A stretch of 64,000 nucleotides of DNA from Parietichytrium sp. I65-24A (Eukaryota > Sar > Bigyra > Thraustochytrida > Thraustochytriidae): the NCBI GenBank assembly GCA_012862575.1, contig BLSF01000020.1:62001-126000 (forward strand), written 5' to 3'. Below are positions 1,779 through 50,352 of the stretch, piece after piece. How positions within the stretch are numbered: position 1 is the first letter of the stretch; every line of letters begins with the position of its first letter. The notes below the pieces were generated by a model, which worked only from the letters and a program-made list of their open reading frames with translations, was not told the DNA's origin and made no database searches. The position numbers and the translations under genes were made by a program.

Positions 1779-2620
1779 TTTATCGTGTCTCACTGTACGT
1801 GTACATTGCTGATTTCTTCCTCCTCCTCGCTGCGAGCCAAGATTCGTAGGACACGATAACTCGCTTCAAAATTTGCAGTGATGAACGTTCTGAATTTAAG
1901 GATCGCGAAGGGCAGTACACAGAGAGTACTCAGCTGCTAAAGAGTGTCGGCGGAATCAGGAAGACTATGAAAGAAAGAGGCAAGGCTCTGAAGGCCCTGA
2001 AGGCCCTGGAGGGGCCGATACTTTTGTCGGAAGAAGGATCGAAGGTAATACGAAAGACGCAATGAACGGAGGTAAATCTGAAATATATCATGATTTTATA
2101 ATGACACAGTTTGCCATAGTACAGCAAAGCGAGTTCATTTCTTGCCATCGGTACCAGAGTGGTGGAGGGCTATACAAGAGCTGCAAAAAAGTTTAAGAGC
2201 TGTGAGGGCAGCTGATAATTTCCTTTTTCGTGCCCCAAAAGCCCCGAATCCAACAAGCAATCTTTTGCCTTTTCTTCTTCGCCCTCACTCAGCATATGTG
2301 CAAAAGAAAACTGGCATTGTCCCCTCGGGCATGCGTGTTGACGGAGAAGCTGGAGGAGTTCCAGCTTCCACCTCCACCATTTCTTTTTAAAGGAGGTGAC
2401 AGCCTACGCAGAGTGAAGTGCAAAAAGTCAATCGTTCATGAGTTTCACGAGGCCGTATTGGACTTCAAGGTGAGCTAATCGTATCGTGAACACAGAAAGG
2501 CTGTCCGTGAGCTCACTGGGTTCCTACAAGAGGTGTGCCAAAGTGAAGAAGAAGAAGGCAAGACCGGGACTTTAGTTTTCGAGTCAATCTCCGAGGACCG
2601 AAGGCAACACTTTCTGCGCT
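1779..2620 (+). CDS. Probable intron-containing gene, product unknown
   Basis: No frame is long, but a run of open segments joins cleanly at GT...AG borders. Apparent exons are about 1779-1845, 1879-2044, 2130-2201, 2293-2469 and from 2500. The apparent introns are 33, 85, 91 and 30 bases, and the last three junctions all fall between codons. The joined product would be charged and mostly helical, with segments such as KALKALEGPILLSEEGSK, LPSVPEWWRAIQELQKSLRA and KSIVHEFHEAVLDFK. A later piece (LVFESISEDRRQHFL) faintly recalls an R3H domain, too weakly to name. A further open segment follows a pyrimidine-rich AG near 2852 and ends at 3018, so the gene may run on. Both ends are unknown and the model is by eye. 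It contrasts with the intron-free neighbours. The alternative is a decayed gene or chance. Confidence 0.35.
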
Positions 2621-3018
2621 AGACGAGCTTATGGTACCTGGCACATGCATATCCGCTTAGAGCGAGCGACACCTCCTTTCTTTCTTGTAGGCGTGAGAAG
2701 AAGTAGTTGTGCGGTCTGAAAGTTGTGAATTTTGAAGACGGATCGATGTTGATGAGAGAGGTGCTCGTAGTGGTACAAATGGCCATGCACTTCTTTTCCC
2801 GCGCGAGTGAGCTTATCCCGAATTGACCCTCTCTTTCTCCCGCAGCTCGATGGTTTGAAGCAACTCATGGATTCGATTTTGCGAGCGTGGTGCGCTTGCA
2901 AATTCTGGGTGATTGTCATGCACTGACTGATAGATTTGATTTCGTCCAGAAGAAAGAAACCTTGCGGCTTTTGATGTCACAACAAGATTGTGCCTCAGCA
3001 GTCAATGGTCCATTGTGA

Positions 3019-9826: not shown

Positions 9827-11836
9827 TCAAAGATCCGCAAAAACTGCTTGAAAACCCACTTGAATGTCAGTCAGGAGAGTTCCTTGGAACACACCATTTT
9901 CGTCGACTAAGAGGTCATCCTCGGTTTTCAGCTTCTGAACCTTGCGAAAAATCTCATCACCGATGGGGTTGCTGCTCACCATCGTCAAATCGCACAACTC
10001 CGCTCCATTTGCATCCCTGCCCTCCCGGCAGATACAAGCTACCAAGTAAGGGGCGTCAGCACGAATGGTATCATCATCGACCTTGGCGAGCATTTCTTTA
10101 AGGCTAACGTGTTCGTCGGTCTCTGTCGAGCAGGTAGAGCTGATGCAGATCCAAGCTTTCGACGGAATATCTCGCCTATCAGAGCAAGGAACGATGCCTT
10201 GCTCTATAAGCAGGTCGTATGCGCAATCATAAAGCTGCGTCTCCTTATGCGAAGAAACAAAGATTATCTCGGCTTGTTGGGTCCTTTTCCCATTTTCCAC
10301 CTCCTCAAACCCCCACTTGATAATCTTAATATCGCCCATGCCTTGCTCCCTCAAGAGATTGACTATGCTCGGAGGAAGATCGATTTCTTTCGATGAACGG
10401 TTTGTGGTGCCAGTGTCCACTTCACGGAAGTACTTGGCCACTTTTGTGGGGCATGAAAAGAGCTTCCAAACCTGCTCACATACCCGCTCGCACGAGTATG
10501 GAAGTTGTAAAGCATCCACTCGAACATTGAGTCTCTGGCACGTCTTATACGACATTTGCCGCGGAAGATATTGGAACGCAGTTTTAATATCAATCCCAGA
10601 AATTGCCAAAGGTACACCGCGCTTCCAACTCGGGTCACGCTGCGAAGAGTAGGAGAGTCCGATCCCTTGAGCAGCGCCGCTATCTAGAACGTGCCGAAGA
10701 ACTCTGAACTGCTCCTCCGGGCTCGGCTTGGTGGCTCGACTCGTCAGACTCACCAACTCACGTACATATCTTCGGTGACTCTCAATCTCCGTACGCAGCA
10801 ACTCGTTCTCTTTGAGATAGTCAAATTGCTCCCCACCTTGAAGTGCGACTGCCTCAGTTTCCAGCAACGCAATTTTTGAGAGCAAGAGTTTGCGCTCCAT
10901 TTCCAGCTGCTCATTCTTCTCGCGCAAGAGGTTCTCTTCACGACGGCGCTTTTCTCGGTGTCTCTTGCAGTGCTCCGCGTTGCGCGTAATCTTGCGCCTT
11001 TTGTCCTTCGATTGGTCATCAGAATCGCTCTTTTTGTCCGAGCTAACTCTGGACATGGCCATCATGGCGTCAGCATCTGTAGGATTCTCCACTTCCTTCT
11101 GCTTCTTTTCTTTCCCCTTGGAATACGTAACCGAATCGTTTGCTTTTACTGACTGACTGTGAATGCTCGGGTTGCTGGAAGTGCGGCGCGTTGAGGTAAA
11201 AGCCCGTGCGTATGGCTGAGCTTTAGCGTTGGGTGGAGCGCTATGTGGCTCAGGGTGATGGAGTAGGTGTTGAGGCTGCCGGGGGGCAAATTGCTGCACT
11301 GGCGCTAGTCCGGCTGGCAAGAACGACTGCTGGGCCTGCTGCTGCCGGTCAACTCGACCCACATGATCAAATGTGGCATTCTTGACATCGGCAACAGGAC
11401 CGCCATAGGTATTTTGCCCAAGAGCAGCGCTTGGTGGGGTCATACGAATATTTGGGTTAGTTTGTGGGACAGCTTGGGCCTTGCCTGTGAATGATCCACC
11501 GCTGTCGAAGATCTGCTGCCCGCGTGCGATCACTTGAATCTGCTCTGGGGCCAGAGCAGAGACCTCTTGAAAGCTGTGTGTCTTGGTTTCGGAATTATAA
11601 GTATACATTTGAGAGTGCGAAGCACTTACGCCAGGGGGCGAAAAGTATCCCCTCGTCACTGTTCCGTACTGTTGAAGTGGGTGAGGGTGATGATGCAGAG
11701 GCTGTGACTGTGATTGTGGCTGAGGTGAGACTACCACTGGCGCTCCCGCCCGCCCGCTTCGAGACCGCTTATGGCTCTCCACCGCGGGCGCTTCATGACT
11801 GTGGCTTTCATTCTTCTTCGGCTTGCCACGCGGCAT
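9827..11836 (-). CDS. bZIP transcription factor with conserved C-terminal domain (paralogue B)
   Basis: Predicted nuclear DNA-binding protein of 669 residues. The N-terminal 200 residues are rich in Gln, Pro, Ser and His (QPQSQSQPLHHHPH), typical of an activation region. A Lys/Arg-rich stretch leads to the bZIP basic region (NAEHCKRHREKRRR, about residue 286). N-x7-R is kept, but the usual alanine of the NxxA core is replaced by histidine. The leucine zipper runs to about residue 350. The C-terminal 310 residues match the same region of the facing bZIP gene, including IGL, YLPRQMS, RLNVR and the DENGVF end. Both genes therefore descend from one ancestor and were inverted relative to each other. 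Start ATG at 11836; one ambiguous base lies 90 bases upstream. Confidence 0.9.
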   Translation of the reverse strand: MPRGKPKKNESHSHEAPAVESHKRSRSGRAGAPVVVSPQPQSQSQPLHHHPHPLQQYGTVTRGYFSPPGVSASHSQMYTYNSETKTHSFQEVSALAPEQIQVIARGQQIFDSGGSFTGKAQAVPQTNPNIRMTPPSAALGQNTYGGPVADVKNATFDHVGRVDRQQQAQQSFLPAGLAPVQQFAPRQPQHLLHHPEPHSAPPNAKAQPYARAFTSTRRTSSNPSIHSQSVKANDSVTYSKGKEKKQKEVENPTDADAMMAMSRVSSDKKSDSDDQSKDKRRKITRNAEHCKRHREKRRREENLLREKNEQLEMERKLLLSKIALLETEAVALQGGEQFDYLKENELLRTEIESHRRYVRELVSLTSRATKPSPEEQFRVLRHVLDSGAAQGIGLSYSSQRDPSWKRGVPLAISGIDIKTAFQYLPRQMSYKTCQRLNVRVDALQLPYSCERVCEQVWKLFSCPTKVAKYFREVDTGTTNRSSKEIDLPPSIVNLLREQGMGDIKIIKWGFEEVENGKRTQQAEIIFVSSHKETQLYDCAYDLLIEQGIVPCSDRRDIPSKAWICISSTCSTETDEHVSLKEMLAKVDDDTIRADAPYLVACICREGRDANGAELCDLTMVSSNPIGDEIFRKVQKLKTEDDLLVDENGVFQGTLLTDIQVGFQAVFADL

Positions 11837-19048: not shown

Positions 19049-20014
19049 TCAGCCGAAAAGTAAGTCGTCCAACTTGTTGCCAACCATCTCCAAATTCTTT
19101 TCGAAGTACCCTGGTTGGCAAATGTTGTCTTTCTTTTCGTATTCGCACGAGTACTTGCAACGGCCGCAAGCGCAATGGATTGCCGCGTCACAAAGCTCAA
19201 TAAAAGGGCTAACGGATGTGAACATATTCGAGAGACTCTCAGCGATACTAAATGCAATACCGTCGCATAGACCAGGAATCCTATCAAGAGCATTGTAAAC
19301 GCTGCACGTCACAATCTGTTTAAACACAGCCTTGTTCACGAGATTTATGACTTTCTTGATGAGCGCTGCACTAGGGTTGCACCATGGCAAAGTTCCAGCG
19401 CTGGCTGCACATACCGCTGCCGTCGAAGCCGCGGCACATGTAGTCGACATGATAGTTCGGGAGCCTGGAAGTTTGCACACAAGGTCCCACGCCTTCAACA
19501 TGCGCTTGCCAATCCACTTCAAGTCATCCAGAAATTGCTCCTTGAAGTATCTTGTGATGGTTCCGAATCCGTCCAGCAATATTTCCCAGGCATCTTCGGC
19601 GCCGTCCACAATGAAGTCAAACAAGTCCTCCGTTCGCTCCTTGAAAGGCCGCGCCAAGTGATCCACAAGCGCCTCGGCCACATCGAGGAAGACGTCATCC
19701 ACGTTTCCGAGGACCTTTCCGATGTTTTTCACCGCCTTCTTGGACAACTTGCCCACAGACTTCACCACCTTCTTGACGAAACCCCACGGATCCCACCGCG
19801 TCGTGCCCGTGAGCTCTTGCATCAAGAGCGAATGATCGCTCTGCGACATGCCTTGCCCGAGGGCCACGTCTTCGCGGCTGGACTGCGCCTCAAGTGCATG
19901 GCTGTCCAAGTTCTGACGAAGTCGCTGCACCAGAAGGTTCCTCTCGCACGTCACGCACGACAGCAGCGCCGCGACCACCACCAACAACAGCAAATTTACA
20001 CGCACGCCTTTCAT
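19049..20014 (-). CDS. Secreted amphipathic, cysteine-bearing protein of unknown function
   Basis: I do not recognise the family. The frame could extend upstream to 20188, but that part translates the GATT repeat (NQSIDRSID...). The ATG at 20014 instead begins a textbook signal peptide (MKGVRVNLLLLVVVAALLS), so I place the start there, giving 321 residues. After about 70 residues of propeptide-like sequence comes a long Lys/Asp-rich amphipathic helical region (WDPWGFVKKVVKSVGKLSKK onward, roughly 75-190) with no cysteine. Next is an Ala/Cys segment (TTCAAASTAAVCAAS), then a helical part, and last a cluster of eight cysteines within about 45 residues (including CDAAIHCACGRCKYSCEYEKK). The pattern fits an exported protein with a helical membrane-active or lipid-binding part and a disulphide-rich tail. 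That function is inference only. No near paralogue is seen in the window. Confidence 0.75.
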   Translation of the reverse strand: MKGVRVNLLLLVVVAALLSCVTCERNLLVQRLRQNLDSHALEAQSSREDVALGQGMSQSDHSLLMQELTGTTRWDPWGFVKKVVKSVGKLSKKAVKNIGKVLGNVDDVFLDVAEALVDHLARPFKERTEDLFDFIVDGAEDAWEILLDGFGTITRYFKEQFLDDLKWIGKRMLKAWDLVCKLPGSRTIMSTTCAAASTAAVCAASAGTLPWCNPSAALIKKVINLVNKAVFKQIVTCSVYNALDRIPGLCDGIAFSIAESLSNMFTSVSPFIELCDAAIHCACGRCKYSCEYEKKDNICQPGYFEKNLEMVGNKLDDLLFG

Positions 20015-28888: not shown

Positions 28889-29842
28889 TCAAGCTCGTTC
28901 GGTTGGCCGGATTTCGCTGAGCTGGCCGCTCTTGGTCGGAGTAGACGTGTCCAGGAGATCCTTCAAGATGTTCTCTGCTGTTGTCTTCAAAGCGCTAGCG
29001 TCCAATTCAACGGAACCAGCTGCGCGAAGACCCATCAAAACTACCTGGTCGATGTACACAAGGCGAAGCAAGTAACCTGGCACGCACTCTGTCTGAATGT
29101 GTGACTTCCGTTCGCTGACTCCGCGGCGAAGGACCTGCATCAGCCGAGGCTCCAGCTCTTCCAGAAGATCTAGTCTCCGGTGGCTGCAGCACGAGTATAC
29201 AAGCTCGTGAGCACTACAGCACGACTTTGATGGCCTTTCCAGCGCTCCTCGAAACAATAAAAGATTGTTCGTGGACCTCTGGAACGCTGCGCCCCATTCC
29301 CAATCGTCTGGATGAAATAACGTCCAGCTCGGGAGGTCTTCCCTGAGCGCCCTTTGAAGTTGCCGATCTCGGAATTGCTTCACTAGCACCCAAAGATCCG
29401 TGTCTTCTTGCAAGCAGCTCTCCTTTTCACTCGCAGCGCCACCTTCTACGGCGTCGCTGAACCCATAACTTTCGCAGCTTGCGAGATGCTTCGCCTTTTG
29501 CTCCATCAACACTTCTGCGAGCGGGTCACCGCCCAGAGAGAAGAAGTCTTTCAGCAGCCTGGAAGCAACGGCTACTGCTTCAAGATCGTGCGATTCTTCC
29601 CCGAGTAGGCAGCAGAGCAGATCGTCTTTTGCCACAACGTGCAGCGCTTCCGAGTGCGACACCGCCGCGCAGCCGACATACTCTGCAGCTAGCAAGGGGT
29701 CTTTGTTGGTGCCAATCTCGAGCATGCAAGCTGCCAGTCTCGCAAGACTCTGTAGGCACAATTCATCCTTGCCGACCGTGCGAGCCTGAACCCCGCAGAC
29801 CGTCGTGCCCCATGCAGTTGAGATCAATGCCAGCTGCCACAT
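28889..29842 (-). CDS. Unknown helical protein
   Basis: 317 residues from the ATG at 29842; two further codons upstream begin with TTG and are not used. I recognise no family. The chain is mostly helical with many leucines, alanines and cysteines (LARLAACMLEIG, LLCCLLGEE, VASRLLKDFFSLGG). This suggests a HEAT- or ARM-like solenoid, with an acidic loop around residues 115-140 and a charged C-terminus. No signal peptide or membrane helix is evident. It converges on the TPR gene, with only 184 bases between the stops. GC-rich sequence continues about 150 bases upstream of the ATG, so a 5' exon may be missing. Confidence 0.7.
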   Translation of the reverse strand: MWQLALISTAWGTTVCGVQARTVGKDELCLQSLARLAACMLEIGTNKDPLLAAEYVGCAAVSHSEALHVVAKDDLLCCLLGEESHDLEAVAVASRLLKDFFSLGGDPLAEVLMEQKAKHLASCESYGFSDAVEGGAASEKESCLQEDTDLWVLVKQFRDRQLQRALREDLPSWTLFHPDDWEWGAAFQRSTNNLLLFRGALERPSKSCCSAHELVYSCCSHRRLDLLEELEPRLMQVLRRGVSERKSHIQTECVPGYLLRLVYIDQVVLMGLRAAGSVELDASALKTTAENILKDLLDTSTPTKSGQLSEIRPTERA

Positions 29843-34736: not shown

Positions 34737-34966
34737 GTGTCCTCGCGTACCGCAGGAACGTTCCGCGGAACTGCTCGCTCGCAAGTTCGAACGAAGGCTA
34801 CCTACCATTTCTTAGCAGCTTTCATACCTTTTCTTACGCGTGTCCTCGCACACACCTCAGGAACGTTCCGCGGAACTGCGCGCTTGACCGGGGGGACTGA
34901 GGTTGGACTGACTGCGGAGTGTCCTCGCGCACACGTCAGGAACGTTCCGCGGAACTGCCTGCTTGC
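34737..34966 (+). promoter_or_regulatory. Three ~47-bp direct repeats with heat-shock-element-like palindromes
   Basis: Near-identical copies lie at 34737-34782, 34840-34886 and 34919-34966, the last ending 5 bases before the ENGase ATG. Each has the core CAGGAACGTTCCGCGGAACT. The core combines the palindromes GGAACGTTCC and GTTCCGCGGAAC, that is GAA-nn-TTC followed by a further GAA, as in heat-shock elements. Each core is preceded by GTGTCCTCGC. The cores begin at 34755, 34860 and 34939. A diverged relative (GAAACGTTCCGCGAAACG) lies inside the coding region at about 35100. HSF binding is inference; the repeats themselves are directly visible. Confidence 0.6.
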
Positions 34967-34970
34967 AAAT

Positions 34971-37067
34971 ATGGTGTTCTCCGACGAGGACTGGCGCGCC
35001 CTCGCGCGTACGGCAGAGGGGTACGCGGGCGAAACAGTCCCGCAAGTGTGGGGCTCGCGGCGAGGACAGCTGGAATGGCGGCCGGTGGTCCTCGGCGCGG
35101 AAACGTTCCGCGAAACGTTCCCGGAAGCGCGGAGGAAATGGGTTCCCGTGGGCGAGGACGGCGAAGGAAAGATGCTGTACGCGGCGAGAGTGTGGCGGTG
35201 GAATGGGATCCACATTGGGTTCCTGAGAGAAGAACCGGAACCCACGCTGTACGCGGCGATGGTGGGGTACGCGGGCAAAGCCGTGGCGATTGAGACGACG
35301 ACGGAGAGAATGGAAGTGCTGTGCTTTGGTGAACGTGGAAACAGTGGTGAATTGAACGACCAAGATGTCAACATTGCCAATTTTACCAATGTTGCCAACA
35401 TTGCCAGTGTTGCGAATGATGCAGACCAAGATGTCAACATTGCCAATGTTACCAACGCTGCCAACATTGCCAGTGTTGCGAATGGTGCCGCAGACCAAGA
35501 TGTCAACAATGCCAATGTTACCAACGTTGCAAATGATGCGAATGATGCAAACCAAGATGTCAACATTGCCAATGTTACCAACGTTGCCAACATTGCCAAA
35601 GTTGCGAACGATGCGAATGATGCAGACATTGCAGACATTGCAGGCGTTGCAGATGGTGCAAAGGATGCAATGGATGCGAAGGATGCAATGGATGACAAGA
35701 ATGGAGATGAGGAAGATGGTGCAGGTCGCCAGGATTGTCATGCAGTACACTCGAGCGAAGATGCTGGGGAGAAAGCTGTCGCCGACGATGCAGTTCATGG
35801 AGTTAATGCCAAGGTGCCGTGGTGTTTTGGAAGCGTTCCAGGGTTGAAGTGGGTCGTGGCGCGCGACGGCGTTGTGCCGGAAGGAGCAATCGCTGGTGGA
35901 TGGGAAGCAAGCGGTGAGAAACTTTTCCTGGCAGTTGGTGTCGCCAAGGCTAAAGATGGTAAAGGAGCATTTATTCCCGGGAAACTGTGCCCGGGCTTTG
36001 GAGGGTGCAACGTGGCTGGCTTGGACGGCAACGAATTGACTTGCCGGGAGTATTGGGTCCCATGCGTTTCGACAGAGCTTGCAACCCGGTGCAAACTGGA
36101 CGAGGTGTCCCTGCTGGTGCCTTCCGCCGAAGATCTGCCTAAGGCTCCTCGATTCTTGCGTAGCATTCGAGACCTGCTTGAGTGGACTCCAGAAGCGGCC
36201 GAAGCGGCTGAATGCTTCAGCAAAGAACGGGTGAGCGACATTGGGTCCGTCTCCAATGGCCCGAAAGTGATACTGTGCCATGACATGAAGGGCGGATATT
36301 GCGAAGACGCGGACGAGAACTACTCTCAAGTGTTTGATTCGTGGGACATGATCGATACGTTCGTTTACTTTTCGCACTGCCGAATTGCGATCCCGCCAAA
36401 ACTGTGGATCGTCAAGTGCCAGGAAAAGGGCGTAGCGTGTCTGGGGACCATCATCACTGAAGGAAAAGTTGGCGAAAACGAGAATGAGCTGCTGTTCAAA
36501 AACTCTGCTCTGGCTTCCGCCAAACTCGCAAAGATTTGCAGCACTTTCGGATTTGATGGTTACCTTGTAAACATAGAAAGTGACGCAACAAGTGCTCAGG
36601 TGGTTCAAGAATTTCTCCATAATTTGACAAGTGCTTGCAAAGAGGGGCTTGGCGCAAGCGCAACCATCCTCTATTACGATTCATTGGACAGGAACGGGAA
36701 GATCTCGTACCAAAATTGTCTCAATGAGCACAATTACGATTATGCGAGCAAATGCGATGGCATTTTCACCAACTACTGGTGGGACGAGAGCACATTGATG
36801 GCCACAGAGCTTCGCTACCCCGAAGAAAAGCAGAGAGTGTACTTTGGAATTGATTGTTTTGCCCGAGGAAAGGTTCCGCACGGCCCTGGACCTGACTGCC
36901 AGTCAGCCATCAAACTAATTCAAAAGTACGGGTTCTCCATTGCCATCTTCGCCCCAGGCTGGTCCTACGAGTGTGGAGACGCCAAGATTTCGCTGTGCGG
37001 GTCTTTTTCGAAATCCAAAGAATGCGATGCTGTGTTTTGGCGACACATTTTGTCCAAACAGGAATGA
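34971..37067 (+). CDS. ENGASE: Endo-beta-N-acetylglucosaminidase (GH85) with two DM9 modules
   Basis: 698 residues. The frame opens at 34737, but that part only translates the promoter repeats, so the ATG at 34971 (MVFSDEDWRALA) is chosen. Residues about 20-110 form a DM9-like module (KWVPVGEDGEGKMLYAARVW). Residues about 132-244 are an Asn/Ala/Val tandem spacer. Residues about 285-370 form a second, better DM9 module (GLKWVVARDGVVPEGAIAGG, IPGKLCPGFGGCNVA). The GH85 catalytic domain spans about 430-695, with HDMKGGY, DTFVYFSHCRIAIPP and the catalytic Asn-x-Glu pair N534/E536 (YLVNIESD), then YYDSLDRNGK, FTNYWWD and FAPGWSYECG. ENGase cleaves between the two GlcNAc residues of N-glycans, usually in the cytosol; DM9 proteins of molluscs bind mannose. 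No signal peptide is seen, which suits a cytosolic enzyme. The fusion would place a mannose-binding module beside the catalyst. It converges on UBR1 with 83 bases between stops. Confidence 0.93.
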   Translation: MVFSDEDWRALARTAEGYAGETVPQVWGSRRGQLEWRPVVLGAETFRETFPEARRKWVPVGEDGEGKMLYAARVWRWNGIHIGFLREEPEPTLYAAMVGYAGKAVAIETTTERMEVLCFGERGNSGELNDQDVNIANFTNVANIASVANDADQDVNIANVTNAANIASVANGAADQDVNNANVTNVANDANDANQDVNIANVTNVANIAKVANDANDADIADIAGVADGAKDAMDAKDAMDDKNGDEEDGAGRQDCHAVHSSEDAGEKAVADDAVHGVNAKVPWCFGSVPGLKWVVARDGVVPEGAIAGGWEASGEKLFLAVGVAKAKDGKGAFIPGKLCPGFGGCNVAGLDGNELTCREYWVPCVSTELATRCKLDEVSLLVPSAEDLPKAPRFLRSIRDLLEWTPEAAEAAECFSKERVSDIGSVSNGPKVILCHDMKGGYCEDADENYSQVFDSWDMIDTFVYFSHCRIAIPPKLWIVKCQEKGVACLGTIITEGKVGENENELLFKNSALASAKLAKICSTFGFDGYLVNIESDATSAQVVQEFLHNLTSACKEGLGASATILYYDSLDRNGKISYQNCLNEHNYDYASKCDGIFTNYWWDESTLMATELRYPEEKQRVYFGIDCFARGKVPHGPGPDCQSAIKLIQKYGFSIAIFAPGWSYECGDAKISLCGSFSKSKECDAVFWRHILSKQE
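35361..35630 (+). repeat. In-frame coding minisatellite within ENGase
   Basis: Four units begin at about 35361, 35427, 35496 and 35553, spaced 66, 69 and 57 bases, all multiples of three. Each encodes a version of DQDVNIANVTNVANIASVAN. Length changes keep the reading frame, so the spacer can vary in length without breaking the enzyme. The same tract opens long artefact frames in other phases and on the other strand. Confidence 0.9.
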
Positions 37068-37150: not shown

Positions 37151-40100
37151 TCAAAGCAAATTCGTTGCGACGAGATTTTGCCGATAGTCGTTCTTCAGTA
37201 GTATTGATACCACCCGCTGGCAAATCTGATTGTTTGAGCATATGAACTGCAAGTTGCGATAAGCTTGCTCGTGGAACTTGAGTGGACGCCCGCGGCGCAA
37301 ATTGTCATCTGTCTCACCGTAACTATCCACGTATGGAGCACTCATGTCCACCGCAAAGCGATTGTGTACCAATACCACGACGCACTTTTGAAGCAAGAGG
37401 TACGCGCAGCTCCCTCCACCGCATGCCTGCGCATGCCAAACACCGCTACTGCACTGTGGGATTTTATTATTCAAACTTCGGCGGCAGCAATTTTGCTTTG
37501 TACAGATGACGACTCCGCAGCGCAGGCACAATGCTGGATTTCTTATCGCCATCCCAGTACTTGGACATTTTGCCGTGCGCGCCACGCTGGCGAGAAGCTG
37601 CTCATAGTGCTCTGGAAGCGGAATGAGTCCAAACCGAGTTTTGTCCAGACAGCATCTGGAGAGAGTCGTGTCTGATCGGCGCGGAACTTGAGCTACCCAG
37701 TTGTGTATAATAGGAACCAAGTTGGACTCGACGAGCACCGATACTGGGGGGATTTCTAAAAATTTGAGCCACAATACCTCTACTTCGTCCCCCTTTTCGT
37801 AGTACGAGTGCCCGGGAAACTCGCTCGAGGTCGCATGACCTTCCTCCGACAAAATGTCAAACAAAAGCACGACCACTCGAAGGTAAGCAGCTAGATCCGA
37901 AAACATCACTAGGAAAACCTTCTCGGGAGTCAAATTCGGAACAATTTGTCGAAGCGGCGTGCACCACTCCTTTGCAAGTGCGAGTCGCACGCTTGATTTT
38001 GAGCTCTCGCAAAGTTCGACTGCGCCATCTTTGGTAATTCCTTGGATCAGTATCGCGATCGCAATTGCTCGCGCGGCGTTGAGATGGTATTGCTTCGGCA
38101 AGGTGCACATCAGTCCCACAAGAACCACGGCGGGATCGGCCATATTCATAAAGATGCCGTCCGGCGTGTTTTGGCGTCGGACGGTCATGAAAGGTCTTGC
38201 GAGGGTCACCTCGTCACCAGGCAAGAGCTCAAACTCTCCGCCATCGCCATCGCTTACCACCTTTCGCTCTTGCATTATTTGCGAAGGCACCCCGCTTCCG
38301 AGGACGCTACTATCGCATGGTAAAGTCCACGTGGAGCTGTTTCCGGGAGCCAAGGTCTTCGCAATTACACAGTACGGATTGCAAGCTGCACCAGCAGAGA
38401 GCATTTGGAAGAGACTATTTTTATCATCTGACATGAATTCCTTCGCGTCGGACATTGACAGGGAGGATTGAGCACCATCCGACCCCTCGGCTGACGAATA
38501 GTCTTTACGGCCTTTTCGAAAGTTTCCGAGGAGCATGGAGAATTGATTTCGCAAGAAAGTTGAAGCAGCCAGAGTAGGCCCAGATGCTGTGCTTCGTAGC
38601 CCTGGCGGTGTGGTGGCTGCGTCTGATACTCCGCTTGCCTGACTCGACGTAGATGGAGACTCGGCAGATGACTTTGGCTCCGACATGGAACGAGACGGGT
38701 TTCTGGGAGGGGAGGAGGAGGCCGAACGTCCAGCGTTCGCTGCCCACTTCAAGCTGAGCACTTGCGCAGTGCGAAACAGCGCGAACCATTGCTTTTTGTC
38801 ATCCTCCACTAAATCCTTCAAGTCCCTAAAGCCGTTCACAGGCGTCTGCGCGCCGCACAAACTTTGCTGCATCGTGGCGCGTGCTCGCAAAGAGTACCCT
38901 ATTGAGCTCCAGATTGCCAGCATCTTTTCGTCGTCGTCGTCTTCCTCAGAGGGCTCCGCGTTGGCAGATTGGCGGACGGATCCAAGTATTGCCCGCACTG
39001 CCGTTGTTCGCGTGGCGCGAGTGGCTTCATTCTGCGCCAACACCGGAGTCGCCAAGTTCTCGCTCACGCTGAACAGTGTGTCGATTAGGGTCTGCACATC
39101 AGTTGGAGACTGCACTTGTGGAACATCCTGTAAATTCACACGAAGCAGTTCGCTCGTCAAAAAGTGCGCCACGTCGTCACAGCAGGAAAGGGATAGTCTG
39201 CGACGTTTATCCGGTGTGCGGCCCTCCGCGCTGCTGTCTTCCGACTTTGTGGAATCCATTGCACTCTGCGGAATGATCACATTGCTTAAACTTTTGCACA
39301 TGGGGCAGTGGAACTCGTTGCGGTTAATATCTGGGAATGCCGGATGCTGGAAGAGGTTGTTGTGTCGATCCTGCCGAAGAGACGCCAAATATGTTCCTAA
39401 ACACTCCATATGCATAGCGTGCGAGCAAAAGCTCACGTAAACACCTTTATCGGAGTCTTCTACAACCTCCTTGGGATCAACAGCTTCGGATTTCTGCGCC
39501 CTGGCGCCACTCGAAGTTGCCGCGAGACTCGAAGACAAGTTTGCCAGTCTTGCGAGGGGCACATCTCCCAACGCCTGTGCTGCGAGCGCAATCGCCGCAT
39601 CAAAGCCGGCTTCGTCAGCCTCCAAAAGATAACCTTCTACATCATCATCGTCATCGCCAGATTCCATCTCGTCGAACCCAAGATCCATAGCACCCATGTC
39701 AACATCATTGTCGAGATCGGCTTCATTCTCCATATGCGACAAACCCCAGTCAAGATCTCCGCTCGAGGAGCCACTTTGGAGACGACGCCGAGCCTCAGCT
39801 CCGGTCGCACCAGTTTGCTGCCATGGCTTGGTCCAGCCTGCAGGCTTTCGGTGAATACTCATTATCTTTGGCGGACAATCCTCGCCAGGGAGTAATTTCA
39901 GAGGATTTCCCCAGCTAGATTTTCGCGCAAAACCCAAAAAGGCATGCTGCTTGGTGTCAAGCCGTTCGTGACAAAGCACACAATAGTCCTCTTCGTGACA
40001 TTCCGCAGCAAAATCCCCTTCTTCGCCCATCTGAGCCATGGCCTTAGCCTGAGCTTCTCTGATCCGATCCATCGCCAAGCGCTGTGCTTCGCCAGCCTTT

Positions 40101-43100
40101 GCCTTCTTCTTTTTCGAAGACTTGGACCCCTTTGCCTTCTTCTTACTTCCAAGACCAAGAGCTTTGCGGTGATCCTCAATAGATGGGTGGAACTTTGCCA
40201 GCGCTTGATTGCACCAGGTCATGTATGTCGTTTTCTCTTCATTGTGCTCTGACGCGAACAACAGCTCGAGATTCACTGAAAGCTCCAGCAAAGAGAATCC
40301 CAGTGTCTCCTCCCCCGGTACATGAAAAACCTCATCCAACGGTGCCCGATTTGTCAAAACTGAGTCCAGCTCTTCCGTGGAGGACCCGCATGCCTTCATA
40401 CTCTCGTAGTGGTGGATGAGGATGGTGTATAGGTGCATGGCTGCATGGCACAGCCCAGCGGAGATCCGGCTGAAAATCAAATCGCGTACTCTTCCGGAGG
40501 ATTTGAAAACATTGTCAGGGTTCTGGCCGGTGATCTTCGGCAGCCCAAACGCCAATGCGTTGAAGAATGTCGGTTTCAAGATAGTGTCTATGAGCGCTGG
40601 GCAAGTGATCAATTCGCGCGTAGATTCGAAGAGCTGGATGGGAGGGCCGGGCGGAGGCGCAGTCATGGGCCACGAATTGTTGCCAAAGCGCTTCTGCTCC
40701 CGATAGAGCCTCTCAGCGATGGCATCTTCTCTTTGGCGCGGAATGTTCCAGTAGAATGGGTCAACCTCTGCCCATACTTCGGGTTTGAGAACGTACGTCC
40801 ACGACTCACTGCCGGATCCCGACATGATCGCAACTTCATCAAGAACTTTCTCCACCTCAGCAGACGGTACCCCCCCAAAGTCGTGCTCATCGTCATCGTT
40901 GCTGTAGTCCTCGCCGTCGTCAATGCCCTCACCATGATCCCCAGAATAAGAGATTCGAGCCCGGCGGACGTTTTCGCTCACGAGAGAAAAAGTCGCTGGT
41001 CCGTCGCAAGTTGCAATGGCGTGCACAACTTCTCTCCTTAAAGCAAACTTCCCGTTGTTTCGAGCCACTGGAATCTCAGTGACTATGTGAGCGATCAAAC
41101 GCAAGAGCTCATCCGCCAATTGTGCGTAATACGTATCGATAATGTGTCCCCACTTCGTGAAAAACGGAACAAGACCAAACTTGTCCAGCAGCGCAAGCAA
41201 GATGTGCTCTGGACCCAGCGCTGACACTGCTACTTGCAGAAGCGCAACGTCGCACTGGTACATGAAATGCGAGCAAGGGCCCTTGTAGTTTGTTACAATA
41301 TTGTCCATGGTGAAGCCATTTCTCCTCCAGAGCTGAGAATGGATTTGGGCACTGGCCGACAGAATCCGCAACACATCTTCGATCATCTGCATGAGGTCAA
41401 TATCGCACAGAGCGTCTCGCAGCAGTGTTTTCAACTGCAGGTTTGGTGCACGCGCGCTTGCTCGGGCTTCTAACAAGACTCCGTACGCACTGGTGAAACT
41501 GGCAAAGAAACGCTGAACTGGTAGGTGGTGCGACACAAGGTCGCCTTTGTATACGTGGCCCTCTTTCAGCTCAAAGGTTTGACTGCGGTCCCAAGGTGCT
41601 GAGGCGACTTTTGTCGGAAAGCGAAGTTTTTGCGCACCAGACACGCCGATTTCTGTGGAGTCCACGACGCTAAATGTGCACTTGTTATCTTCCGCCGTGT
41701 GCTGCAGAATCTTCACAAGTCGATCGCCTTCAACTTTCACAGTCGCCCGCTCTCCTGGGTGCCACACCAATGAATAGTCGAAACAAAGTTTCGCAACACG
41801 TTTTAGCATCAGCACCAATAATTGCCCAGGATCGTCGCTCCCCTCCAGGCATGTGATCACACTATCACTTGCGAGTTGCAATGCTCCGGGACGAGACACA
41901 ACTATCAAGTTCATGGACAAATTAAATGCAATAATCCACTGATCATCCTCCTGTTCAACATGTATCTGGCTCTGGTTCCGAAACTGTGGATTCGATCGCT
42001 GTGCCACACGTAGAAGATTCAAAAGGCTCTCCACGCGCTTTGTGCCTGTCACATCATCTTTATCAATCAATGGACGCTGCGCCATTCGAAACGTGTACCG
42101 CACATCCAATAGAAACGTCTGATACCTTTGTTGCCTCAGGAGCTTTGAATTCAGAAAATCTAATTTGTGCACCCGGGATTTTCGTGTCGTATTATTGACA
42201 CGAGAGTCTTCCTCTAGCCCCATTCGCAAGACAGCACAGACTGTGTCTAGAATACCTACTACAAGATCTCGCGACTCCGCCTCATATTTGCGCTCTAGAT
42301 TTTGAATGATGCTTGGCACACTAAGAACTTGCACCGCGAGCATCAAACTCGTCTCCGCGCCAGTACCCAGCCCGCAGCTGAAAGCGCAGGCGATACGATG
42401 ATGTGCAAACATGAAGGCCTCCCCAAGATACTGCTTGAATCTAGGGTTCGTGAGCAACGAGAGCCAGATGGACTGGAATGCTTTGATGAGTTGTTTTGGG
42501 ACCAGAGCGTCATAAGCAAGAACAGCAGAAATGAGTTGCAAGTTTGGCATGTCCTCCAAAGGCACCTCACGAGGCCAGCTCGAGTTGCCCTCACAAATGA
42601 CTCTCAAATATGCCTCTGCAAATTTGCAGTCCACGAGCACTTGGGCGCTCATGAGCTCCTCGACGATGATTTCAGACAAGCCCTGCGATATCTTTGCGAT
42701 TTCTGTCATCCACACGAGGCCAGTAATTGCCTTCTGCTCCATGCTGAGCTGATTGTCAAAGGAAACGCATACAAAGAGACCGTCATCGTCCAAAATTCTC
42801 CGCACGGGAGAGATCTTGTCTTGCATTATGGTTTCGAACGATGACGCCGAAGTAAATTGCTCCACAAGTATCGGAGCGCGGCCCTGGGAGTCCACAATAG
42901 AGGTTTTCTGGCTCATGGTTTCAAGGTCAAGTGGGGCAATGCGACTAATGTGTCGCAGAGCACTCCGGACTTCACTAAAGCTATGCACGTCCGAATTGTT
43001 GATAACAACGTTTGCGTACCTCGCTCCATTTGCTGACAGCTGCTCATAATCGTCTTCTACTGGAAGCGCCGCCTTTGAGCATCTTGCATATGACTTGAAG

Positions 43101-43732
43101 ATTTCTTCGAGTGTAGCGACTATGAAGGGCAGGATCACTTGCACGATTGCTTGGCACTGGGCCGCAACGAATGGCGGCAAGCTTTCACGAGAGTCTGCTG
43201 GGCCACCCTCGCTTGCCTTGGCTCCATGCCGATCACAGAACCCGTTCGGGTTCCATGATTCTTCGTCTCCGCAGTCGCAACAACCGCCAGGACTCGTGCG
43301 ATGAAACGTGACCTCGTGTCCAGTATGATCGCTTCGATCGAAACATTCCTGGCAAATCACGCACGTGTTGTCCACCTGGCAGGTTCGGCAATTGTAAGCA
43401 ACGTCATTTAGTCGGAAAAGCTTGCCACATCGCTCTTGTTGATTCTCCTGGCGAAGCCTCGCAAGCCCTTCGTTCCCGCTAAGAACCTGTCTACCGTCCT
43501 CGCGCACCGTACGACAAAACAAAAGCTCACTCAGAAGCGACTGCACTTGAGCGGGCTGCGTCAGCTTCAGTGCCTCTTGAGCAATTGCTTGGACAGATTC
43601 AACATCCACAGCTTTCCCTCCCATTGCGTCATTGCTAATCGCTTGGATCTGACTCCTTAAAGCGAGAAGCAGCCGCGTGTCCGCCGCGGTGGGTCCTGCT
43701 CGCCCAATGCTCGAAGATCTGCCGCGCAACAT
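37151..43732 (-). CDS. UBR1: UBR1-type N-degron E3 ubiquitin ligase
   Basis: 2193 residues from the ATG at 43732 (MLRGRSSSIG); a GTG-begun extension to 43774 was not used. The protein holds a UBR box (about 102-170) with its zinc ligands (CRTC, CVICQECF, CCDCGDEESW and FCDRHG), which binds basic N-terminal residues. A ClpS-like segment (about 235-300, VVINNSDVHSFSEVRSALRH) is suited to bulky hydrophobic N-termini. A RING-H2 begins at about 1250 (CVLCHERL) and, after an acidic insert of some 180 residues, resumes with CSHAMHMEC and FHCPMCK. The C-terminal zinc-bearing UBR autoinhibitory domain (about 2050-2193) contains CPSTGMAIRNPALCLRCG. Both substrate sites and the catalytic module are present, so the protein should be a full N-recognin working with an E2 of the RAD6 type. 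No intron is visible over 6.6 kb. It acts in cytosol and nucleus. Confidence 0.95.
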   Translation of the reverse strand: MLRGRSSSIGRAGPTAADTRLLLALRSQIQAISNDAMGGKAVDVESVQAIAQEALKLTQPAQVQSLLSELLFCRTVREDGRQVLSGNEGLARLRQENQQERCGKLFRLNDVAYNCRTCQVDNTCVICQECFDRSDHTGHEVTFHRTSPGGCCDCGDEESWNPNGFCDRHGAKASEGGPADSRESLPPFVAAQCQAIVQVILPFIVATLEEIFKSYARCSKAALPVEDDYEQLSANGARYANVVINNSDVHSFSEVRSALRHISRIAPLDLETMSQKTSIVDSQGRAPILVEQFTSASSFETIMQDKISPVRRILDDDGLFVCVSFDNQLSMEQKAITGLVWMTEIAKISQGLSEIIVEELMSAQVLVDCKFAEAYLRVICEGNSSWPREVPLEDMPNLQLISAVLAYDALVPKQLIKAFQSIWLSLLTNPRFKQYLGEAFMFAHHRIACAFSCGLGTGAETSLMLAVQVLSVPSIIQNLERKYEAESRDLVVGILDTVCAVLRMGLEEDSRVNNTTRKSRVHKLDFLNSKLLRQQRYQTFLLDVRYTFRMAQRPLIDKDDVTGTKRVESLLNLLRVAQRSNPQFRNQSQIHVEQEDDQWIIAFNLSMNLIVVSRPGALQLASDSVITCLEGSDDPGQLLVLMLKRVAKLCFDYSLVWHPGERATVKVEGDRLVKILQHTAEDNKCTFSVVDSTEIGVSGAQKLRFPTKVASAPWDRSQTFELKEGHVYKGDLVSHHLPVQRFFASFTSAYGVLLEARASARAPNLQLKTLLRDALCDIDLMQMIEDVLRILSASAQIHSQLWRRNGFTMDNIVTNYKGPCSHFMYQCDVALLQVAVSALGPEHILLALLDKFGLVPFFTKWGHIIDTYYAQLADELLRLIAHIVTEIPVARNNGKFALRREVVHAIATCDGPATFSLVSENVRRARISYSGDHGEGIDDGEDYSNDDDEHDFGGVPSAEVEKVLDEVAIMSGSGSESWTYVLKPEVWAEVDPFYWNIPRQREDAIAERLYREQKRFGNNSWPMTAPPPGPPIQLFESTRELITCPALIDTILKPTFFNALAFGLPKITGQNPDNVFKSSGRVRDLIFSRISAGLCHAAMHLYTILIHHYESMKACGSSTEELDSVLTNRAPLDEVFHVPGEETLGFSLLELSVNLELLFASEHNEEKTTYMTWCNQALAKFHPSIEDHRKALGLGSKKKAKGSKSSKKKKAKAGEAQRLAMDRIREAQAKAMAQMGEEGDFAAECHEEDYCVLCHERLDTKQHAFLGFARKSSWGNPLKLLPGEDCPPKIMSIHRKPAGWTKPWQQTGATGAEARRRLQSGSSSGDLDWGLSHMENEADLDNDVDMGAMDLGFDEMESGDDDDDVEGYLLEADEAGFDAAIALAAQALGDVPLARLANLSSSLAATSSGARAQKSEAVDPKEVVEDSDKGVYVSFCSHAMHMECLGTYLASLRQDRHNNLFQHPAFPDINRNEFHCPMCKSLSNVIIPQSAMDSTKSEDSSAEGRTPDKRRRLSLSCCDDVAHFLTSELLRVNLQDVPQVQSPTDVQTLIDTLFSVSENLATPVLAQNEATRATRTTAVRAILGSVRQSANAEPSEEDDDDEKMLAIWSSIGYSLRARATMQQSLCGAQTPVNGFRDLKDLVEDDKKQWFALFRTAQVLSLKWAANAGRSASSSPPRNPSRSMSEPKSSAESPSTSSQASGVSDAATTPPGLRSTASGPTLAASTFLRNQFSMLLGNFRKGRKDYSSAEGSDGAQSSLSMSDAKEFMSDDKNSLFQMLSAGAACNPYCVIAKTLAPGNSSTWTLPCDSSVLGSGVPSQIMQERKVVSDGDGGEFELLPGDEVTLARPFMTVRRQNTPDGIFMNMADPAVVLVGLMCTLPKQYHLNAARAIAIAILIQGITKDGAVELCESSKSSVRLALAKEWCTPLRQIVPNLTPEKVFLVMFSDLAAYLRVVVLLFDILSEEGHATSSEFPGHSYYEKGDEVEVLWLKFLEIPPVSVLVESNLVPIIHNWVAQVPRRSDTTLSRCCLDKTRFGLIPLPEHYEQLLASVARTAKCPSTGMAIRNPALCLRCGVVICTKQNCCRRSLNNKIPQCSSGVWHAQACGGGSCAYLLLQKCVVVLVHNRFAVDMSAPYVDSYGETDDNLRRGRPLKFHEQAYRNLQFICSNNQICQRVVSILLKNDYRQNLVATNLL

Positions 43733-46425: not shown

Positions 46426-49400
46426 ATGAACAGCAACTCCAATTTGCGGGCGGCAAGCTCGCCGCGAAGCCAGTCCAGCTTTGTCAAGGGGTTGGGCGAT
46501 TGCGCTACGTCTCCATCGCCAAGTTCTCACCAGAAAGACTTTCCCGATGATAAGAGGTCCGACATCAGAGAACCAAAGCGAGTGCAAGAATTTGAGGAGA
46601 GTAAGGAAGAGAGTGAGTCCGGCTCGGAGAGCTCGGTCAACAACAATGCAAATGAGAATGCAAACATTGTACGCATGCAGTCGAAGGCAAATCCGGTTGG
46701 TGTTGATGAGGATGGGGCCGTGCTTCCTCTCTCCAAGCTTTTGCCTGGACCGACCGTGCTGCTTGCAGGGCTGGAGCTTACCAGCAATAACATAAAAGGA
46801 TGCTGTCCGTTCAGAAAACAACACTCCACGAGGAGTGGGCGCATACGAAGCCGGCAAGAGATTTCTGGGGATAAAATTGCTGTTATAGAAGAGGATCTTG
46901 ACAGGTATGGAGACTTTATGTGGCAGCCACGCATTCACAGTGCCGTGCTATGTGGTGCTCAAAGTGACCGAGTTTTGCGTGGATTCGTCTCCCAGAAAAC
47001 AAGCCGCATGGATCCATCCACAAGCTTCAAATTCCCCTTTCTTTCATTGACCTTTCTGGAAGCGCTTCACCCATTCCTCCAGCTCGAGAATGGCGGCCTT
47101 CTGCAAGGCTATTTCAACAATTTGTACCCTATTCTCGGAACACTCGTGCGGAACCAACTTTGCTTTATCGCGACCAGGCTGGAGAGGAGCAGTATACAAA
47201 AGGTCTTTGAGGAGCTCTGTTTCGAAACATGCGCGATGAGTTTTTTTGGGAAACGGTGCAATCAAATCCGGAATATGCTTACCATCGAGGAGTTCAGGGA
47301 ATTTGCTTCGCTAATTTCGTCGCAAGATCATCCGAGACTTTTGGCCCTTCGCTCCAAACTAGAGAATGCTCTTGGAAATTTCGTGATGTCGCACATCTCG
47401 CCAGCACCTAAGAACACGTCCACTTATGATTTTGACAGCGCGGACGACGATAGCACGCTAGCTAGCTTTTGTTTGCTCAATTGGGTTCGCAAGCTCGATG
47501 GTGTCAACGGTGCGGATCGCCGCGAAGCTACTGTGACGCATTTTGTGAACTCCTTTCTGTACGGCGTTTTCGCGTGCGGGGCTTGTCTGACAAATATTCT
47601 CGAAGCCATCTACGGTGATGAGGGCGGCGAGAGTAAGGCTCTTCTTGAGCAGCTTCTTGAAGAAGCGGGTAGCAAACCCGAAGACGGAAATGTGATTCCT
47701 TCAACCCCGCTACTTGGCGCGGTGATTACCGAGTCCTTGCGTCTCAATCCCCCAGTACCATACATTTTTCGTGTCGTGGATGAGCCAAGCTTACGCCTGA
47801 ACACTGCGGACGATTCAACAGTTAGACTCCCAAACGGCACGTCTCTGTGCCTAAGCGTGATGCATGACCATCATTCCGAGGAATATTGGGCGGAACCTGA
47901 GGAATTCGATCCCAAACGCTGGCTCGCGAAAGACGAAGGAGCGGAGGAGAATGGAAAGCTTCACACGCCGCACATGTTTTGGCCATACGGAAAAGGCGGA
48001 GGGCACAAGTGTCCTGCAAAGCCATTCTCCATGTTTTGGATGCAGACGGTCTTGATCGAAATCTTGAATGGGTTTGACGTCGAATTAAGCTACGCAAACA
48101 ATTCCAACCCAGAAGAAAGAGTGTTAGTGAACAACATCTCGACAGTGCCACAGCCAGAGTTTTCACTACAGTTCAAGCCAGAGCGCATGCCTGCGACCGG
48201 CTCAGTCTTCGCAGCGGTTTTTCGCCCACAGAAATCTTTCATCAAACTTTCCCCGGATGACCAGGGACCTTCGTTGGCCTCTCGAGCTGCGAGGGCCGTT
48301 GTGAATTTTGTAGAGGAGGGGAAGCATTCGACAACAGCCAGTATCGTAGGCATTACCGAAGTGAAGAAGGATCGTGATACCGGCAGGGACAATCTCTCAC
48401 TCACCAAGCCATTGCAGACATTGAGCCGAGCAGTCAATCAAACAAAGTGCCCATCTGGGGTCGACAAGGTAATCCGATACTTTGTGACGGCCGTACAACT
48501 CTACGGGTGTAGGACAAGTACCAAGCTGGAGCCTGCGATGGTCTCAAAAGACTCCTTTTTCCCCAAGATGAGATTGCATCTTGAGAAGACTCGCCTTGGT
48601 TTGGAAGTGGCCTCTTTGGAAGAGGATGTCAACGTTCAGTGTCCTCTTCCAGGCTTTCTGAGATTTATCGAGAATACAAGACCGTACAGAAAGTCTGTGG
48701 AGATGCTGCCCCTACATCGAGAGCCGCGATGGATTAAAAACGAAAAACAGGCCAGCAAAATTTTCCGAACCACATTTGGTGTTCAACCCGAAATTGCTTT
48801 TCGGCGTCATTCTGTGGTGGACAGTCGAGTGAAGCGTGACATTGAGGAGCTCGTAAAGAATGCGTTTGAAGGGGCTGGTGTGTGGTTTATCCGTTTGACG
48901 GATTCTCGGAAAGATGCACAACCATGTCCTGGAGCATGCTACGTGTGCGATGTCTCGCGGCTAAAGAACTTTCAGGTGCGTCCTGAATTTTGTAATTATG
49001 GTGCAATGGCCTTCTTTGGGCGAAATAAGAACTTTATAGCGATTTGGACGCAACATCGCAAGGAATTGGTGTACCCAAATAGCAGGAATTGGGAGGAAGC
49101 TAGGCAGATCTTCAAATCTTCGCTGCTTGCGGACCTTCTCCTGATGCAACAACTGCGGTGGGTTCGGTTTGGCGTTTTCAACAATATCGGTTTGGCAGCG
49201 AAACAGACCTTGGCAGAAACGCATCCAATTCGGCGCTTGCTAAAGCCACACACCTACATGTCCGCAACCATCACGTCAATCACTGCGCATGCATGCCTTT
49301 CGCGCGGCGGACTTGTCCAACGTGCCCTTGCTCTTAGCTGGGACGGTCTCAAGGAGGCGTTCAAACACAGCGAACTGAATGAGAGTGAGGGTGAGAGTCG

Positions 49401-50040
49401 TCTTTTCGGCCAGGAGTTAAGATTGAAAGGATTCGTCGACCGCGGGGACTTGGAGAAGGTGCCCTATTTCAAACAGCTTTCCGAGCTTTTCAACATCGTG
49501 AGAATATATGTCTCAGCCTACGTTGGAGTTTTTTATCAGCGCGATGAGGACGTTCAAAACGATCCACAGTTAGCGTCTTTTTTCAAGTTCATGTGGAGAG
49601 CAGAGGAAAATCCGAGGCCGCCACGCAAAGTTAATGTCATTTGCGATGAGCTCGCGAACCTAATTTTTTGGTGTATCATTGGGCCAAGTCAAATGAGTGC
49701 AATTTCCTCACTCGCTGCTGATCCTTCCTTTTGTCTCAAGGTTCACCGCAAGCAAAACAGTCGCTACACAGACGTGTCTACCTATTTGTACCAGAATGCT
49801 CTTTGCTCTTTCCTATCCTTCGGCTCCAATCGTGTCAGCATGTTGGGAGACTGGTCGCACTTATTCGAAGGCGTTCGTTCTCCCGCTGGAGAGGTTTGTA
49901 CCGAAGAGCAAGCCAAGTTCGTGACCGTTGCAATCCAGCAGTTTCAACGTCGACTTGAGCGTTTGGCAGTGGCCGACCAGCAAGCCTCACCAAACAATGG
50001 GCTAACACTGCGCCGAGGAGACTTGGGGGCATCTGCTTGA
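46426..50040 (+). CDS. Cytochrome P450 fused to a lipoxygenase-like domain
   Basis: 1204 residues from the ATG at 46426. Residues 1-130 are Ser/Glu-rich without a membrane anchor. About 130-585 is a P450 domain, with the K-helix E436-x-x-R439 (ESLRLNPPVP), a DPKRWL block, and haem ligand C529 in YGKGGGHKCPAKPFS. The missing anchor, LNPPVP and the altered Cys loop resemble the CYP74 clan, which rearranges fatty-acid hydroperoxides without O2 or NADPH. About 700-1170 matches the lipoxygenase catalytic fold (LADLLLMQQLRW, HPIRRLLKPH at 933, FNIVRIYVSAYVGVFY, LANLIFWCIIG). The iron ligands are gone: no His lies at 904-920 where HWLxTH is expected, W1082 is followed by GPSQMSA in place of the HxxxN pair, and the C-terminus is Ala, not Ile. 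A natural hydroperoxide enzyme-lipoxygenase fusion is known in corals, there with a catalase-like N-terminal part. Subfamily is inference; both folds are well supported. Confidence 0.85.
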   Translation: MNSNSNLRAASSPRSQSSFVKGLGDCATSPSPSSHQKDFPDDKRSDIREPKRVQEFEESKEESESGSESSVNNNANENANIVRMQSKANPVGVDEDGAVLPLSKLLPGPTVLLAGLELTSNNIKGCCPFRKQHSTRSGRIRSRQEISGDKIAVIEEDLDRYGDFMWQPRIHSAVLCGAQSDRVLRGFVSQKTSRMDPSTSFKFPFLSLTFLEALHPFLQLENGGLLQGYFNNLYPILGTLVRNQLCFIATRLERSSIQKVFEELCFETCAMSFFGKRCNQIRNMLTIEEFREFASLISSQDHPRLLALRSKLENALGNFVMSHISPAPKNTSTYDFDSADDDSTLASFCLLNWVRKLDGVNGADRREATVTHFVNSFLYGVFACGACLTNILEAIYGDEGGESKALLEQLLEEAGSKPEDGNVIPSTPLLGAVITESLRLNPPVPYIFRVVDEPSLRLNTADDSTVRLPNGTSLCLSVMHDHHSEEYWAEPEEFDPKRWLAKDEGAEENGKLHTPHMFWPYGKGGGHKCPAKPFSMFWMQTVLIEILNGFDVELSYANNSNPEERVLVNNISTVPQPEFSLQFKPERMPATGSVFAAVFRPQKSFIKLSPDDQGPSLASRAARAVVNFVEEGKHSTTASIVGITEVKKDRDTGRDNLSLTKPLQTLSRAVNQTKCPSGVDKVIRYFVTAVQLYGCRTSTKLEPAMVSKDSFFPKMRLHLEKTRLGLEVASLEEDVNVQCPLPGFLRFIENTRPYRKSVEMLPLHREPRWIKNEKQASKIFRTTFGVQPEIAFRRHSVVDSRVKRDIEELVKNAFEGAGVWFIRLTDSRKDAQPCPGACYVCDVSRLKNFQVRPEFCNYGAMAFFGRNKNFIAIWTQHRKELVYPNSRNWEEARQIFKSSLLADLLLMQQLRWVRFGVFNNIGLAAKQTLAETHPIRRLLKPHTYMSATITSITAHACLSRGGLVQRALALSWDGLKEAFKHSELNESEGESRLFGQELRLKGFVDRGDLEKVPYFKQLSELFNIVRIYVSAYVGVFYQRDEDVQNDPQLASFFKFMWRAEENPRPPRKVNVICDELANLIFWCIIGPSQMSAISSLAADPSFCLKVHRKQNSRYTDVSTYLYQNALCSFLSFGSNRVSMLGDWSHLFEGVRSPAGEVCTEEQAKFVTVAIQQFQRRLERLAVADQQASPNNGLTLRRGDLGASA

Positions 50041-50352
50041 TGGTCAATCCGACTTCACACGAATAATCATAATCATAATAAAGAATAGAAAAAAGCTGAC
50101 AAAGAGCACGCGCAAAGGCAAGCTTCGTGTCTGAAGAAAGTAGCGCTTGCCCATAGATCCACGGTCTCGCGGAAATCGCAGTCTGCTCTGATGCTTTGCG
50201 GTTTGCCCTGAAAGACATATGGCAATGCAACCTCTGCTTGGGAACTTGGATGATGTTTGTCACTCTTGTTTCCGCTCAAGTTGCGTTGAGCTCTGTGCTG
50301 AACAACTTGGCTTAGATGAGGACTGGACCAGCACCGCAGGGGTCAGGAACCC

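Follow-up and report, generated by a model that had tools for sequence, protein, structure and literature searches.

A cytochrome P450-type haem domain joined to a lipoxygenase fold with a replaced iron site in Parietichytrium

In octocorals, a catalase-like allene oxide synthase (AOS) is fused to a lipoxygenase (LOX), as described in PMC5617202 and PMC3925239; the AOS-LOX of Plexaura homomalla (3dy5) and its relatives carry an N-terminal haem domain that handles hydroperoxides and an active C-terminal lipoxygenase in one chain. In fungi, a COX-like haem dioxygenase (DOX) is fused to a cytochrome P450 (passages of PMC13049297), and in these DOX-CYP proteins, namely the linoleate diol, epoxyalcohol and allene oxide synthases, the P450 is self-sufficient. 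The CYP74 clan of P450s comprises the plant AOS and hydroperoxide lyases (HPL) and the algal and animal epoxyalcohol synthases, and the passages of literature examined do not mention its fusion to a lipoxygenase. Here we describe a gene from the thraustochytrid Parietichytrium sp. I65-24A, found in a stretch of 64,000 nucleotides (contig BLSF01000020.1, positions 62,001 to 126,000; hereafter the window). The product of this gene carries a P450-type haem domain and, C-terminal to it, a lipoxygenase-fold domain with substitutions at all five iron-ligand positions. The protein resembles the octocoral fusions in its domain order, but its haem domain is a P450 instead of a catalase relative and its lipoxygenase part is iron-free instead of active. 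It resembles the fungal enzymes in joining a fatty-acid dioxygenase module to a P450, but the module derived from a dioxygenase is in this case a lipoxygenase and comes last.

The reading frame and the lipoxygenase half

The fusion gene occupies positions 46426-50040 of the forward strand, on which all of its features given below lie. It is a single uninterrupted open reading frame (ORF) of 1204 codons followed by TGA, its only stop. In terms of codon usage, which was scored with a training set of 29 genes (mostly P450s from the same genome), the forward frame ranks first of the six in 12 of 12 segments of 100 residues, with a narrow margin at residues 101-200; the final four codons, scored as a separate row, do not favor it. 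At E-values of up to 1, Pfam recognizes P450 and lipoxygenase families in the protein and no other, and a COX-like haem dioxygenase domain has no match there. A first-pass annotation of this DNA had described one frame joining a P450 to a lipoxygenase-like region and had set it apart from the coral AOS-LOX, and both statements hold.

The lipoxygenase family PF00305 matches the whole protein with 26.3 bits and residues 659-1204 alone with 28.8 bits, in both cases above the cut-off of 23.6. We nevertheless call this match weak because a genome-wide PF00305 scan found three other lipoxygenases and missed the fusion gene. Homology becomes detectable at about residue 830, and not at residue 650, where the first-pass annotation had placed the start of the lipoxygenase half. 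The domain proper comprises residues 830-1182 (48913-49971; hhalign E-value of 5.4e-12), and its AF2 model has a lipoxygenase fold according to Foldseek and VIA-align, at modest confidence and from an alignment that included lipoxygenase rows. On both counts, the family match and the modeled fold, the first-pass annotation is thus upheld. The preceding linker and N-terminal part of this half (residues 590-829; 48193-48912) have no detectable homology on their own, are modeled with low confidence and can be aligned only weakly to the other lipoxygenases of the genome. The motif HPIRRLLKPH is retained at residues 933-942 (49222-49251), as the first-pass annotation had it, and is found in the alignments and in the match to the Protein Data Bank (PDB). 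In a sequence search of the PDB, the top match of the lipoxygenase half was the coral AOS-LOX (E-value of 2e-8).

The closest sequence relatives found are the three free-standing mini-lipoxygenases of the same genome, L002, L003 and L004 (E-values of 6e-20 to 2e-14; tree support of 99). These proteins of about 560 residues have kept the His/His/His set and the terminal Ile/Val, unlike the fusion. The fusion sits on an extremely long branch of 7.6 changes per column in a tree that came from a quick search and for which the sequences from this genome had been aligned together beforehand. L002 and L003 form a tandem on contig C122 and are 92% identical, and L004 is on contig C51. All three have HNHAGN where HxxxN is usual, so that a Gly occupies the Asn-ligand position and an Asn follows one residue later.

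The iron ligands are numbered here after soybean LOX-1 (His499, His504, His690 and Asn694), as in the first-pass annotation. In the fusion, none of the five ligands is kept. Q909 (49150-49152) is aligned with His499 and R914 (49165-49167) with His504, and three further alignments gave the same two residues. The column of His690 depends on the aligner and contains S1091 (49696-49698), P1087 or M1090. Asn694 corresponds to S1095 (49708-49710), or to S1094 in another alignment, and the carboxylate ligand of the terminal Ile is replaced by the C-terminal A1204 (50035-50037) in two alignments. There is no His anywhere in residues 982 to 1106. The first-pass annotation was right about the loss of the site and the absence of the terminal Ile, but the four residues that it named (L910, F915, S1088 and A1092) are one to three positions away from Q909, R914, S1091 and S1095. 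The same set of ligands (His, His, His, Asn and the terminal Ile) is given for a red-algal lipoxygenase model in passages of PMC11507377.

A wider comparison drew on 34 bacterial lipoxygenases, in which 112 columns reach a conservation of 90% or more. Of these 112, 35 are kept in the fusion and 46, 45 and 45 in its three paralogs. With its ligands replaced, the lipoxygenase-fold domain would be incapable of iron-dependent dioxygenase activity. Since the metal site that defines the lipoxygenase enzymes was looked for and is missing, we place the fusion outside them and among the fusions of a haem enzyme with a fatty-acid dioxygenase module.

The P450 half

The P450 family PF00067 matches residues 425-565 (47698-48120) with an E-value of 2.6e-20 and 73.1 bits, against a curated cut-off of 22.8, and hhalign gives an E-value of 1.2e-20 for this core. 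A scan of the genome for P450s yielded 33 matches, some of which are exons of one gene; the split or broken L034 and L036/L039 were left out, and 25 P450s were aligned with the fusion. The alignment confirms the positions that the first-pass annotation had given for E436, R439, C529 and LNPPVP (residues 440-445). The ExxR motif reads E436-S-L-R439 (47731-47742), the haem-ligand Cys529 (48010-48012) lies within YGKGGGHKCPAK, and the PERF-like FDPKRW is retained. Most of the 25 P450s have an AGxDT-like I-helix. In the fusion, the corresponding stretch, NSFLYGVFACGACLT (residues 375-389; 47548-47592), lacks the acid-alcohol pair and has F382-A383 in its place.

The first-pass annotation had also likened this P450 to CYP74, a likeness that the data do not establish. 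LNPPVP was discarded as a CYP74 sign because L021, a P450 of the same genome with an ordinary AGRDTT I-helix, carries the same motif. An I-helix groove and a long Cys loop mark the CYP74 enzymes; the Cys loop of the fusion is longer than that of the other aligned P450s by one residue only. N375 is a candidate counterpart of the AOS Asn, picked by eye alone. CYP74 is absent among the best 60 of the 159 PDB matches listed for the fusion P450. A tree places this P450 beside L023 and CYP7-like P450s with weak support (70/79), and a specific sequence kinship with the CYP74 clan is not shown.

N-terminal to the P450 half there is a Ser/Glu/Asn-rich extension (residues 1-85; 46426-46680), which is probably disordered. 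A hydropathy scan in stretches of 19 residues gave no clear membrane anchor, in line with the first-pass annotation; the I-helix scored highest (mean of 1.62) and was followed by residues 98-116 (1.45). Among the other P450s of the genome, L020 (contig C10), L023 (C52) and L029 (C12) end in a cytochrome b5 domain, and L016 (C31) carries flavin- and NAD-binding reductase domains.

Possible roles of the fusion protein

The reading that we put forward, tentatively and at somewhat short of an even chance, is that of a haem-only oxylipin enzyme, in which the P450 would rearrange hydroperoxides from separate lipoxygenases and the metal-free fold would bind lipid or a partner. As its I-helix has no acid-alcohol pair, the P450 would not be an ordinary monooxygenase. 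Acting on a fatty-acid (hydro)peroxide, it would cleave and rearrange this substrate with no redox partner involved, in the manner of thromboxane and prostacyclin synthases, CYP74 and the fungal DOX-fused P450s, all of which need none according to passages of PMC13049297 and PMC10813956. The same passages describe a nonpolar residue next to the haem in thromboxane synthase and in fungal 8S/9S-AOS; judged by the alignment with the 25 P450s, A383 would take this position. Separate lipoxygenases, at least three of which are present in the genome, would supply the hydroperoxide, and the dead lipoxygenase fold would function in lipid binding or docking, bringing either the substrate or a partner lipoxygenase to the haem. 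The ancestor was probably a bifunctional fusion that lost its dioxygenase step later. We consider this mechanism reasonable because the literature contains both partner-free, peroxide-rearranging P450s and a precedent for a dead partner, Aspergillus 10R-DOX-1, whose fusion partner lacks the haem-thiolate ligand (passages of PMC13049297). The role of substrate holder that the first-pass annotation had suggested for the lipoxygenase fold is possible. That the metal-stripped fold is a built-in carrier of lipid or hydroperoxide for a fused P450 independent of redox partners strikes us as rather doubtful. In the interpretation given by the first-pass annotation, the P450 and the iron-free lipoxygenase fold in one frame, unlike the coral AOS-LOX, are supported, and the CYP74 likeness is not shown.

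Several observations weigh against the proposed role, and most of them fit the main, though unlikely, competitor, according to which both halves are catalytically dead and the protein is either a pseudoenzyme scaffold or the decaying relic of a bifunctional lipoxygenase-P450 with its frame still intact. The N-terminal 300 residues of the P450 half (residues 99-399; 46720-47622) score at noise level, 0.6 bits, against P450 profiles, the sole such case among the 21 proteins tested. All 20 of the other P450s from this genome score 20-139 bits, in a comparison that omitted the short or incomplete L012, L016, L017, L021 and L038 and whose leave-one-out profiles retained close paralogs of the tested protein, which is a bias in favor of the other P450s over the fusion. 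Furthermore, hhalign finds no P450 match in this N-terminal half, and the structure model gives a low-confidence fold match, mainly from about residue 209. The model of the P450 half is poor (pLDDT of 39), and its matches to P450 structures lend weak support. Hence, the P450 may be inactive too, and the "complete-looking" P450 of the first-pass annotation is not borne out by its sequence. F382-A383 matches some peroxide-rearranging P450s and would suit a dead enzyme equally well. The synonymous codon preference of the fusion gene, about 0.02 as a segment average, is at the low end of the range of the 29 training genes scored on themselves (0.019-0.174). The lipoxygenase branch is very long, and the metal ligands are gone along with the I-helix pair.

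The ligand loss itself was considered as evidence that the metal had been selected against; this argument was dropped, since simple arithmetic from the overall rate of column loss gives a probability of about 0.15 for losing five of five; it is no separate sign of selection. The fusion is also known from one species only, as a gene sequence. What speaks against two dead halves is the retention of ExxR, Cys529 and the PERF-like motif, and also the frame: 1204 codons without a stop have a chance probability of 5.7e-26 at the window's base composition. That such a protein-like frame persists despite the deep divergence argues for a protein under selection and not for simple decay.

It is improbable that the P450 is an ordinary monooxygenase fed by a reductase, with a lipoxygenase fold that merely binds the lipid substrate. 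The genome does join P450s to cytochrome b5 (L020, L023 and L029) and to flavin/NAD reductase domains (L016), and an AGxDT-like I-helix prevails among its aligned P450s, but the fusion has F382-A383 instead of the pair required to activate oxygen, and Pfam finds no redox domain in the protein. Very improbable is an artefact of the gene model or assembly, such as an in-frame intron that escaped notice or the false joining of two genes. Some P450s of this genome are apparently split into exons with short gaps (C75 and C31), and the coding signal is weak at residues 101-200. However, the junction (residues 560-830) contains no stop and its coding signal is undiminished, and the full-length sequence matches a single place of the 42.5-Mb genome, on a contig of 595 kb. 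That the lipoxygenase half is an active metalloenzyme with other ligands is the least probable of all, for although residues 590-1204 contain 11 His, two of them within HPIRRLLKPH, none is found at the five ligand positions or in the His-free stretch described above.

Genomic surroundings, bacterial loci and implications

We scanned 80 bacterial lipoxygenase loci, kept out of 110 confirmed ones, for frames of at least 120 residues matching a profile built from the P450s of the Parietichytrium genome. No P450-lipoxygenase fusion was found among them. A P450-type frame lies near the lipoxygenase in 4 of the 80, a count to which no chance level is attached. In L115 (Gloeocapsa; 146-3301), a P450 (E-value of 1.7e-72) is encoded about 200 bases upstream of the lipoxygenase on the same strand. 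In L099, L121 and L123, frames of 458-467 residues match the profile with E-values of 2.6e-9 to 4.3e-6 and no Pfam family at E-values of up to 0.1; the L121 frame, the only one of the three compared with the PDB, has a P450 as its best match (E-value of 0.005). These three may represent an undescribed P450-like group. Bacteria thus at times place P450-type and lipoxygenase genes side by side.

In the window, the upstream neighbor of the fusion gene encodes a UBR-type protein (37154-43732, reverse strand), and the downstream neighbors encode a transporter, a beta-lactamase-fold protein, a short-chain dehydrogenase and a phytanoyl-CoA dioxygenase. They give no hint of a pathway. A possible polyadenylation signal, AATAAA, is located 37 bases past the stop of the fusion gene (50077-50082). 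Elsewhere in the window, a forward-strand frame at 34737-37064 shows an odd pairing of a DM9 repeat with a following glycosyl hydrolase family 85 domain, and four long ORFs of 317-669 codons have no Pfam match at E-values of up to 0.001 (7552-9243 on the forward strand; 9830-11836, 19052-20014 and 28892-29842 on the reverse strand). In the rest of the genome, contig C66 contains a single ORF of 5583 codons (L043) that matches one region of a PfaA model four times and another region once and is taken for a putative giant polyketide-synthase-like gene; a PfaA-type search of the genome gave no match above the cut-off. Light-harvesting (PF00504) and phycobilisome (PF00502) families have no match in the genome, in searches whose control was positive, whereas an animal-peroxidase search gave no match either here or in the control genomes and hence carries no weight. 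Contig C29 carries six tandem 5S rRNA genes at 178026-181372, spaced by about 630-670 bases, and 30 such matches were scored genome-wide.

A P450-lipoxygenase fusion is not mentioned in the titles, beginnings of abstracts and passages of the open-access (PMC) literature searched, which descriptions confined to full texts could escape. Six exact peptide patterns retrieved no close relative of the whole fusion from IMG/VR. We know of no earlier case in which the lipoxygenase fold is put to a non-catalytic use.

The coral and fungal fusions of a dioxygenase with a haem enzyme, made of different parts, illustrate ways of coupling the two steps of oxylipin synthesis. If its metal-stripped fold does act as a carrier for the P450, the Parietichytrium protein would represent a third way of doing so, beside the coral catalase-LOX and the fungal COX-like DOX-P450. 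Aspergillus 10R-DOX-1 is its mirror case: there the dioxygenase is living and the P450 part is dead, whereas here the lipoxygenase is the dead part. A P450-lipoxygenase fusion with a metal-free dioxygenase half would show that such a protein can persist after one of its activities is lost, and it would pose the directly testable question of what a lipoxygenase fold does without its iron.

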